Shown here: piece by piece, positions 30,427 to 35,878 of the stretch
Numbering within the stretch: position 1 is the stretch's first letter
Layout: each line of letters opens with the position of its first letter
Source of the DNA: Methanoregula sp.
GTDB taxonomy: Archaea; Halobacteriota; Methanomicrobia; Methanomicrobiales; Methanospirillaceae
DNA length: 64,000 bases
Direction: 5' to 3'
Assembly: GCA_030694985.1 (NCBI GenBank)
Contig: JAUYTV010000037.1
Location: 124,001-188,000 of the forward strand
The notes under the pieces: generated by a model
What the model saw: only the letters and a program-made list of their open reading frames with translations
Databases searched by the model: none
Told to the model about the DNA's origin: nothing
Program-made: the position numbers and the translations under genes

Positions 30427-31611
30427 TTATGGCTCCTCAAAAAAACAGAAAGGGTCTTGTGCATAAAAATCCCCCTCCGCAGCATGCGCCCGCACCCGGC
30501 ACCCCCCTCCACAGAGATCGCGGTGACTGCATGTCCGGCATCGCCCCTTGAATTGGGCCTGTTTTTCCCGGAATCGTGCGAGAACAGGATTTTGAGAATC
30601 GTTCCAGAGCTCGCTGAATGATTGACTCCTGATGTTCCCGACAAGAAATTCCGGTGAGCGGGCAAACTGGCAGGGGAATATGTTACCCTGTGCATCGATA
30701 TTTGCTACACGGGTGCCGGCGCTGCATCCACCCTTTAATGATTCCAGTAGTTTGCGGGCATCAGCAAGATCTTCTGATCGATCCTTTTCCATGGATGCGA
30801 GAAGGTGTATACAATCCTGTGGGGCATCGACTGTGAGGAACTCCATGGTTGCGGGATCGGTCTCTTTTGCTTTCTTATAGAGGAGCGACAAGGCATCGGT
30901 CACTTCGGTTTTATCCAGTTGCAAGCGGGAATAGGAATCAATCCCCCGTCCCGCGGGCACGAGCCAGTACAGGCAGAACCGGGATGCGCCAAGCGAGATG
31001 GCGAGATCTACGATTTCTTCGAGTTCATGGCAGTTCTCTTTAGTAAGGGTGTTCCTCACCCCGCACCGGAGTCCTGCTTCCCGGCACGCGGCAAATGCAG
31101 CAATGGTCTGCTCGAACGCGCCGGGCAGGTTCCGGAAGCGGTCATGGGTTTCTGCCCGTGCCCCGTCAAGCGATATCCCGGCATATTCAATCCCACATTC
31201 CTTGATCCTCCCGGCAACCTCACGCGTGATCAATGTCCCGTTGGTACTGAGTGCCATCTTGAGACCCCGGGATCCCGCATGAAGGGCAAGGTCCCAGATA
31301 TCCTCGCGCATGAGGGGTTCACCCCCGGAGAAGAGGATGAGCGGGACGCCCATATCAGCGAGATCATCTATTACACCCATTGCTTCTGTTGTTGTGAGTT
31401 CTCCCGCTGTTGATCGGTCTGGGCCGGACTTGTTGTAGCAGTGAGTGCAGCTCAGGTTACAGCGATCGGTGATATTCCAGAAGACCACCGGCCGGTACAT
31501 TCCTGAGAATGCAAGAAAATTACTCGGCACATCCCCCTGTTGCTTGTGGCGATGGCGCATCACGCCGCTGACTGTCCCCCTGCCGTGCATGCACTGCGTG
31601 ATCCGGTTCAT
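30427..31611 (-). CDS. ahbC: AhbC, 12,18-didecarboxysiroheme deacetylase (radical SAM)
   Basis: 394 residues. The radical SAM motif CNLSCTHCY lies near residue 52, within PVVFWNITDRCNLSCTHCYNKSGP, and is followed by VIDDLADMGVPLILFSGGEPLMR, closely matching the NirJ/AhbC type. A C-terminal SPASM domain (CSAGTRVANIDAQGNIFPC...CRTCSHRDLCGGGC...CF) binds extra iron-sulfur clusters. AhbC removes the acetate side chains of didecarboxysiroheme to give Fe-coproporphyrin III. It overlaps ahbB by 4 nt and ends the katG-ahb operon. NirJ-like heme d1 function is the main alternative, less likely next to ahbD. Confidence 0.87.
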   Translation of the reverse strand: MNRITQCMHGRGTVSGVMRHRHKQQGDVPSNFLAFSGMYRPVVFWNITDRCNLSCTHCYNKSGPDRSTAGELTTTEAMGVIDDLADMGVPLILFSGGEPLMREDIWDLALHAGSRGLKMALSTNGTLITREVAGRIKECGIEYAGISLDGARAETHDRFRNLPGAFEQTIAAFAACREAGLRCGVRNTLTKENCHELEEIVDLAISLGASRFCLYWLVPAGRGIDSYSRLQLDKTEVTDALSLLYKKAKETDPATMEFLTVDAPQDCIHLLASMEKDRSEDLADARKLLESLKGGCSAGTRVANIDAQGNIFPCQFARSPEFLVGNIRSQSFSELWNDSQNPVLARFREKQAQFKGRCRTCSHRDLCGGGCRVRAHAAEGDFYAQDPFCFFEEP

Positions 31612-32093
31612 GAACCTCCCCCGTTCTCCCCGATCCGGACATTCGGCACCCGCTTGAACTCGCGGGTGCTGAAGAGGACCAGATAATCCTGAGTTTTTAT
31701 CTGTTCGGCAACTTTGCTGATCTCTTCGAGGACCTGGTTTCTGTCATATCCGTGGTGAACGGTATAATGGGTATACTCCCAGCGACCCGGTATCGGTCTG
31801 CGCTTATAACAATGGGTAACGAAAGGGTACAAAGCGAGCAGTTTTCCGATATCATCGTTGCAGTTCCCCGTCTGTTTCCATGCCACAAGGGCATTTGCAG
31901 TGATCCCTATCTTACGCTGATCGATGCGTGCCCGGAATTTCCTTATGATTCCTGTTTCTTTAAGGTGCCGGATCCGTTCAATGACTTCGTCTCCAGTGAG
32001 ATCGAGCTTTTTTCCCAGTTCTTCAAATGGGGCCGGGACAAACAAAAGACCCCGTTCCAGTTCCATGAGCAGGTGAACATCAGTCTGGTCCAT
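31608..32093 (-). CDS. ahbB: AhbB, siroheme decarboxylase subunit
   Basis: 161 residues of the Lrp/AsnC-like siroheme decarboxylase family: an N-terminal winged helix (DVHLLMELERGLLFVPAPFEELGKKLDLTGDEVIERIRHL) and a ligand-binding domain with FVTHCYKRRPIPGRWEYTHYTVHHG, where His and Tyr residues contact the tetrapyrrole in this family. With AhbA it decarboxylates siroheme at C12 and C18. ATG 32093 is chosen over the ORF-track start; it overlaps ahbA by 14 nt. Confidence 0.85.
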   Translation of the reverse strand: MDQTDVHLLMELERGLLFVPAPFEELGKKLDLTGDEVIERIRHLKETGIIRKFRARIDQRKIGITANALVAWKQTGNCNDDIGKLLALYPFVTHCYKRRPIPGRWEYTHYTVHHGYDRNQVLEEISKVAEQIKTQDYLVLFSTREFKRVPNVRIGENGGGS

Positions 32094-33671: not shown

Positions 33672-35878
33672 TTTTTCAGTCCCTTTGCCTGATCGAAGCG
33701 ATCAAGGTTCATCACTTTTGTCCAGGCTGCTACGAAATCATGCAGGAACTTTTCCCCTGAGTCCGAACTTCCATAGACTTCCGAGAGGGCCCGGAGTTGG
33801 GAGTTCGAACCAAAGATGAGATCGACACGCGTGCCGGTCCAACGGACTTCACCAGTTTTGCGATCGCGCCCTTCAAACAAGTCAGCCTCTTTCGATACCG
33901 GCTTCCATTCCGTTCCCATATCGAGTAAGTTCACGAAGAAGTCGTTTGTGAGCGCTTCTGGCTTCTTTGTAAATACACCGTGCCGGGATCCGCTAAAGTT
34001 AGTGTTCAGCACGCGCATGCCGCCCACGAGCACTGTCATCTCTGGCGCGGTCAGGGTCAGCAGTTGCGCTTTATCTACCAGCAATTCCTCGGCCGATCCG
34101 GCATACAGGGTCTTTTGGTAATTACGAAAGCCGTCTGCCTTCGGTTCGAGTACGGAAAAGGAGGCCACATCGGTCTTTTCCTGCGAGGCATCCATACGTC
34201 CCGGCGTGAAGGGGACCGTCACCTCGTGACCGGCGTTCTTTGCAGCCTGTTCGACCCCGGCACAGCCGGAGAGGACGATCAGATCAGCGAGCGAGACCTT
34301 CTTACCGCCGGAAGCGGCGCTGTTAAACGCGCTCTCTATGCCCTCTAGTGTCTTGAGCACCTTCGCCAGCCGGGCCGGCTGGTTCACTTCCCAGTCTTTC
34401 TGCGGCGCAAAGCGGATACGGGCACCATTCGCACCACCGCGCTTGTCGGAGCCACGGAAAGTGGATGCTGACGCCCAGGCAGTCGAGACCAGTTCCGAGA
34501 CTGTCAGGCCAGAAGCCAGGATCTTAGCCTTGAGGGATGTAATATCCCGCTTGCCAATCAGTTTGTGATTGACCGCGGGGACCGGGTCCTGCCAGATGAG
34601 TTCTTCTACGGGAACTTCCATGCCGAGATAGCGTGCACGTGGGCCCATGTCACGGTGTGTCAGCTTGAACCATGCCCGGGCAAACGCATCCGCAAACTGG
34701 TCCGGGTGCTCGTAGAAGCGCCGCGAAATCTTTTCGTAGGCGGGGTCGAACCTCAGCGACAGGTCCGTAGTCAGCATACCGGGTTGGCGGTGCTTAGACT
34801 TGTCATGGGCATCCGGCACCGTGCCGGCGCCTGCATCGCCCTTCGGCTTCCACTGGTGTGCACCGGCCGGGCTTTCGGTAAGTTCCCACTCGTTTTCGAA
34901 CAGGATCCGGAAGAAGTTGTTGCTCCACTTTGTCGGCGTATTGGTCCAGGTGACCTCCAGGCCGCTGCCGATCGCATCCCCGCCCTTACCGGTACCAAAA
35001 CTGCTCTTCCAGCCGAGGCCCTGCTCCTCGATGCCGGCCGCTTCGGGCTCGGGCCCCACATGGGACGCAGGGCCGGCGCCGTGGGTTTTACCAAAGGTGT
35101 GACCCCCGGCGATGAGTGCAACCGTCTCTTCGTCGTTCATGGCCATGCGGGCAAACGTCACGCGGATATCTTTTGCCGCCGCGACCGGGTCCGGGTTGCC
35201 ATTCGGGCCTTCCGGGTTGACGTAGATGAGCCCCATCTGCACGGCAGCGAGCGGATTTTCGAGATTCCGGTCACCGGAGTAGCGTTTGTCATCCAGCCAC
35301 TTGTTCTCAGAACCCCAGTATACGTCTTCTTCCGGCTCCCAGACATCCGCACGACCGCCAGCAAAGCCGAAGGTCTTGAACCCCATCGACTCCAGAGCAA
35401 CGTTGCCGGCAAGGATCATAAGGTCGGCCCAGGAGATCTTACTGCCATACTTCTGCTTGATCGGCCAGAGCAGCCGTCGCGCCTTGTCGAGGTGCACGTT
35501 GTCGGGCCAGCTGTTGAGCGGCGGGAAGCGCTGCTGGCCGGCACCGGCGCCGCCGCGACCGTCACCCGCGCGGTACGTGCCGGCGCTGTGCCATGCCATG
35601 CGGATGAACAGAGGGCCGTAATGACCGAAATCCGCCGGCCACCAATCCTTCGACTCGGTCATCAGCACCCGAAGATCCTTCTTCACGGCAGCCAGGTCGA
35701 GTTTCTTGAATTCCTCAGCATAGTTAAATTCCCCGCCCATCGGGTTTGACAGGGAAGAGTGCTGGTGAAGAACCTTAAGGTTCAACTGGTTCGGCCACCA
35801 GTCCCGGTTCGATGTGCCTCTGCCGGTTTCCTGTTTGGTTGTCATGCCCGTTACCGGGCACTTGCTGTTGTCAGTCAT
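33668..35878 (-). CDS. katG: Catalase-peroxidase KatG
   Basis: 736 residues, full family length. Distal active site [11 protein letters not shown] (Arg-Trp-His), the Met-Tyr-Trp crosslink Tyr in [16 protein letters not shown], and the proximal heme His in [17 protein letters not shown] are all present, as is the C-terminal duplicated domain. It destroys hydrogen peroxide. The ORF track adds 89 false codons; ATG 35878 ([12 protein letters not shown]) has a strong ribosome-binding site (AGGAG). The base composition looks richer in GC than its neighbours, and a 394-codon antisense ORF runs through it, suggesting transfer from bacteria. It is joined to ahbD by a TTGA overlap. Confidence 0.96.

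Follow-up and report, generated by a model that had tools for sequence, protein, structure and literature searches.

A katG-ahbDABC gene chain in a Methanoregula genome that probably arose by replacement of an older catalase gene

The window, meaning the whole 64,000-nucleotide stretch of Methanoregula sp. DNA analyzed here, carries a catalase-peroxidase gene followed by four genes for heme synthesis from siroheme. Short pieces that resemble a second catalase gene flank katG on both sides. The name katA is given here to this displaced monofunctional heme catalase. The features, in the direction of reading, are as follows.

36040 to 36050, minus strand: CTTATTAAATG, a TATA-box-like element, putatively of the captured katA promoter (consensus match only)
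35875 to 36009, minus strand: 44-codon leader ORF, KatA residues 1-39 plus QEMTL, with its stop overlapping the katG ATG (ATGA)
33668 to 35878, minus strand: katG, catalase-peroxidase of 736 aa, ATG start
33668 to 33688, minus strand: AKGLKN stop, the last codons of katG, taken as a remnant of the katA C-terminus (VAKGLKL stop in relatives)
32595 to 33671, minus strand: ahbD-type radical SAM/SPASM protein (heme b synthase), TTG start inside the katG stop overlap
32080 to 32598, minus strand: ahbA, siroheme decarboxylase subunit alpha, ATG start
31608 to 32093, minus strand: ahbB, siroheme decarboxylase subunit beta, ATG start
30427 to 31611, minus strand: ahbC-type radical SAM/SPASM protein (12,18-didecarboxysiroheme deacetylase), ATG start

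The original prediction had described the order katG-ahbD-ahbA-ahbB-ahbC with gene overlaps of 4 nt (TTGA), 4 nt (ATGA), 14 nt and 4 nt, and all of its coordinates were recovered exactly. With overlaps like these, a terminator would not fit between the genes. The prediction had also called katG translationally fused to the heme genes; the overlap is there, but a fusion is not, and the genes are better described as overlapping and probably translationally coupled. Co-directional with ahbC and next after it is a ferredoxin gene, whose likely start codon is more than 100 nt downstream. An assembly artefact was rejected as the source of the arrangement, as independent MAGs (L157 and L159) showed the same genes with the same tight junction.

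KatG passed both family cut-offs with 1213 and 1332 bits (NCBIfam; TIGR00198, 1213 bits against a cut-off of 770). Its distal Arg-Trp-His, proximal His and Met-Tyr-Trp adduct segments were identical to those of the aligned solved KatG 5l05. AhbB passed its NCBIfam cut-off (150 bits vs 125) and matched chain B of 4czd. AhbA, at 132 bits, was 8 bits short of its cut-off of 140, with this being the best family by far, and it matched chain A of 4czd as well as 4ch7. HxYxR is the active-site motif of siroheme decarboxylases and includes the catalytic Arg (PMC4145669). It is conserved in AhbB as HCYKR, and AhbA has HNFLR at the same site, with Tyr replaced by Phe.

Both remaining proteins contain the radical SAM (PF04055) and SPASM (PF13186) domains. 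The one encoded next to katG scored 353 bits with NirJ2 (TIGR04055) and 319 bits with AhbD (TIGR04545), under the equivalog cut-off of 500, and its CxxxCxxC motif was unchanged across 11 AhbD relatives. For the last protein of the chain, AhbC was the best family (TIGR04546, 330 bits, under the equivalog cut-off of 650). For Methanosarcina barkeri, the two radical SAM proteins were told apart by their likeness to NirJ, which is greater in AhbC (PMC3942049); here, the last protein scored 323 bits with NirJ, vs 175 bits for the katG-proximal one. Because of this likeness, together with the motif, the gene order and the relatives, the two are named AhbC-type and AhbD-type.

The leader upstream of katG aligned to about residues 1-39 of KatA (tblastn E 1.4e-5). 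Its Smith-Waterman score against KatA was 90, the next best among 1832 ORF segments in the window being 40. Pfam gave no match for the 44-aa leader, which is too short for such a scan, so its KatA identity rests on the relatives and on the score ranking. The search for catalases turned up small fragments directly before katG in several genomes, and these correspond to the KatA N-terminus. The 44-codon leader with its ATGA overlap onto katG is also intact in L153, L156, L157 and L063, and it is frameshifted in L171; among the five intact copies, that of the window shows the most decay. Clearer fossils of the KatA N-terminus were found in L063 (genome G011; 82% over 39 aa), L066 (G105; residues 1-97, frameshifted, E 5e-29), L067, L068, L061 and L078. 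The pN/pS of the leader was 0.54, vs 0.13 for intact katA, pointing to relaxed constraint with the frame kept in five genomes. Given this relaxed constraint and the frameshift in L171, no peptide function is claimed for the leader.

At the other end, the window KatG follows the usual KatG sequence as far as RFD; beyond that point it diverges and matches the 3' ends of KatA. The C-termini of KatG in the window, L157 and L159 read QAKGLKN, LAKELKL or AQGLKH, with no gap between katG and ahbD. Such a gap is present in L062, L063 and L064, where it encodes the KatA C-terminus (e.g. MENLTKTDEELGNRVAKGLNL stop). L109 and L110, from two genomes that belong to another family, have an intact katA that overlaps ahbD by TTGA, and the bases TTGAACG are the same as in the window. 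Because the KatG tail copies the KatA C-terminus and the L109/L110 junction is identical, the TTGA overlap of katG and ahbD appears to be inherited from katA and ahbD, and to be older than katG. A further stage was seen in L162 (G053), with an internally deleted katA before ahbD, the ahb genes kept and katG at a different locus. The last katA codons (VAKGLKL or similar) still precede ahbD in L152, L155 and L158, although a type-3 catalase is divergent from ahbD there. Remains of katG were sought in all five loci with a divergent type-3 catalase (L152, L154, L155, L158 and L190), and none were found.

In a sample of 150 Methanomicrobiales genomes, katG was present in 30 and ahbD, counting full-length or fragmented matches, in 52. 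A heme catalase of either family was found in 49 of the 52 genomes with ahbD vs 20 of the 98 without it, counts that are not independent and are uncorrected for kinship. The comparison of katG neighbors proposed along with the original prediction placed katG upstream of ahbD and co-directional with it in 15 of the 30 katG genomes; katG and ahb were apart in 11 genomes. The idea that ahb genomes without katG are heme users of another kind was rejected, since most carry another heme catalase instead. The view that such an operon is unusual for an obligate anaerobe holds in part only: heme catalases, whether KatG or another, are common among Methanomicrobiales. The tie between ahb and catalase is not absolute. 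Heme catalase was not detected in the ahb genomes G090, G096 and G148, nor ahbD in the katG genomes G035, G129 and G056. G035, which is 98% complete, has katG with a katA N-terminal stub (L078); ahb seems to have been lost there, so that heme would need an outside source.

Gene neighborhoods were compared for 80 named ahbD loci, 52 from Methanomicrobiales and 28 from outside the order (Bathyarchaeota, ANME-1 and others), with catalases scored within the fetched flanks. A heme catalase lay near ahbD in 38 of the 52 loci, vs none of the 28 outside. Among the 38 loci, KatG was upstream of ahbD in 19 and divergent from it in 4; a type-3 catalase was divergent upstream in 5 and convergent downstream in another 5; and an HPII-like catalase was downstream in 5, one of them cut by a contig end. 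Four heme catalase types (KatG, CAT1, CAT2 and CAT3), unrelated or distantly related, adjoin ahb in several orientations, and on the AhbD tree the labels for these arrangements switch at least 15 times (FastTree, many weak forks).

Other neighbors of ahb were noted along the way. An aquaporin gene stands directly before ahbD in five loci with katG divergent from ahb (PF00230 in L069; by translation similarity in L160, L183, L184 and L187), and its product as a peroxide channel is conceivable. In Methanocalculus-type loci (L083, L091, L093 and L100), ahb follows genes for two other oxygen-defence proteins, an ODP/FprA-like flavoprotein and a desulfoferrodoxin, and katG is elsewhere or absent. 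Methanoculleus-type loci (L118, L120, L198 and L200) have a divergent ahb set without an adjacent catalase, some with sorbosone-dehydrogenase-like and cupredoxin-like proteins nearby.

The source genome (G000, 96% complete) has Methanoregula and other Methanoregulaceae as its nearest named relatives. It contains one katG, and the PF00199 catalase was not found in it. The cytochrome families Ni_hydr_CYTB (cytochrome b561/VhtC), NarI/HdrE and cytochrome bd were likewise absent, and the search for other heme proteins covered individual families. From its gene content, G000 appears to be a methanogen without cytochromes. A sirC homologue sits on another contig (C25), so the operon covers only the conversion of siroheme to heme. 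The heme operon is thus complete, as had been proposed, from siroheme to heme and not beyond that, and calling it self-contained is too strong, as siroheme must be supplied by genes elsewhere. The central proposal, that the heme is for the peroxide-destroying enzyme and not for respiration, is well supported by the comparison: three cytochrome families are absent, ahbD and catalases co-occur strongly and four catalase types adjoin ahb. The best evidence that the ahb genes serve catalase is that one heme catalase was apparently swapped for another at the same heme genes. A SOUL-family heme-binding-type protein (39368-39958, minus strand, PF04832, 138 bits) is encoded on the same strand as katG, 3.4 kb upstream. 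A SOUL gene also lies near katA in G109 (L253).

With katA remnants at both edges of katG, on the same strand and collinear with intact katA-ahbD, the locus has the pattern of a displaced gene. We consider it probable that katG replaced katA in place within an ancestral katA-ahbDABC operon and, as part of the same explanation, that katG-ahbDABC is a peroxide-defence operon carrying the end of a cofactor pathway. The katA-ahbDABC operon would be ancestral for this part of the Methanomicrobiales. A bacterial-type katG would have landed in katA and displaced it, with the katA promoter, the start region (the leader ORF, whose ATGA would couple it to katG) and the last codons with TTGA being kept. 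Later deletions would have tightened both katG junctions. In some lineages, katG and ahb may then have moved, or katG may have been exchanged for other catalases. The KatG of this order grouped with rhizobial KatG, its closest outside matches, at 82% identity (FastTree, many weak forks). One transcript would yield KatG together with AhbD, AhbA/B and AhbC, which would turn siroheme into the heme b needed by KatG. Co-transcription, translational coupling, peroxide induction, heme synthesis on demand and the delivery of heme mainly to KatG are all predicted from sequence. In-situ gene displacement is a known kind of operon evolution, and here, too, a foreign gene would have taken the operon place of a resident one. 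Unlike in the usual case, the incoming KatG is from a different protein family than the lost KatA, and pieces of katA survive on both sides, as a leader ORF and as the tail of the new protein.

Could katG and ahb have become neighbors directly, the catalase-like stretches being chance matches or later insertions? The window leader alone, just 44 codons at E 1.4e-5, might allow this. We regard it as barely credible in view of the collinear, same-strand fossils on both sides, which are longer and clearer in several relatives, and of a TTGA junction that is the same as in intact katA/ahbD; the long remnants seen in L063, L066 and L162 are already evidence to the contrary. Transcription of katG from the upstream ABC-transporter genes (36076-37999) instead of a captured katA promoter is suggested by the position of the ABC gene, which is on the same strand and stops just 66 nt short of the leader ATG. 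That gap, however, contains the TATA-like element, which could be aligned with its counterparts ahead of the katA remnants in L153, L156, L157 and L063 and, with substitutions, with the promoter region of intact katA in L135. Most relatives have other genes upstream, and we think read-through improbable.

The function of the heme genes also has other readings. The NirJ1/NirJ2 models score much like AhbC/AhbD, as they would if the genes were nir genes for heme d1 and not heme b; this is very unlikely, as AhbA and AhbB are separate subunits, as in methanogens, similar loci in M. boonei and M. palustris were entered as ahb-nir (PMC3004389), and the enzyme that they are paired with, a catalase, uses heme b. 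A general use of the heme, for a cytochrome, a SOUL protein or a heme sensor, would leave katG as a mere neighbor. The SOUL-type protein upstream is a possible other user, and the genomes with katG and ahb apart, as well as the three with ahb and no detected catalase, fit such a use. Against it stand the missing cytochrome families of G000, the co-occurrence of ahb with catalases across genomes, the recurrence of four catalase types beside ahb, and the SOUL gene not being beside ahb in the relatives examined, so that a general use seems rather unlikely to us. A catalase-serving operon built by replacement of katA remains our preferred reading.

The available sections of earlier work describe the Ahb pathway of AhbA/B, AhbC and AhbD in M. 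barkeri (PMC3942049) and the entry, in 2010, of ahb-nir loci for Methanoregula boonei, Methanosphaerula palustris and Methanoculleus marisnigri (PMC3004389); they make no mention of a catalase link of the ahb genes. The window has the same four gene products as M. barkeri, with separate AhbA and AhbB, for the route from siroheme to heme b. M. barkeri differs in that its ahbC is apart from ahbDAB and its cell has cytochromes (PMC3942049). In the window, a catalase gene comes first and the four ahb genes stand together behind it. In Bacillus subtilis, PerR controls katA and hemAXCDBL (PMC5189952), and in Leptospira, heme genes are induced by peroxide (PMC7567364). In both, peroxide brings about a joint rise of catalase and heme supply, but through a shared regulator or response on separate loci, and not through a single overlapping gene chain with a different heme pathway. 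A 2021 survey found AhbABCD in 0 of 32 Methanomicrobiales and suggested environmental heme for KatG (PMC8351635). Our data agree with it on the presence of KatG in Methanomicrobiales. They differ on ahbD, which was found in about a third of the 150 genomes, most inspected loci having the full set, and the ahb loci as annotated here contradict the conclusion that the order lacks AhbABCD. No description of a katG-ahb or catalase-ahb operon, or of a katA to katG replacement, was found in the open-access literature.

The locus would give heme synthesis in methanogens apparently without cytochromes a concrete purpose. It would also be an unusually well preserved record of how one enzyme supplanted another, non-homologous but with the same task, at its position in an operon, and it offers a testable system, with a defence enzyme and its cofactor genes in one chain. 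As a wider and still tentative hypothesis, to which we give somewhat less than even weight, cytochrome-less methanogens may keep the heme pathway for catalase, with ahbDABC as a cofactor cassette for interchangeable heme catalases and the katA stub, translated as a leader, setting katG expression via old katA signals.
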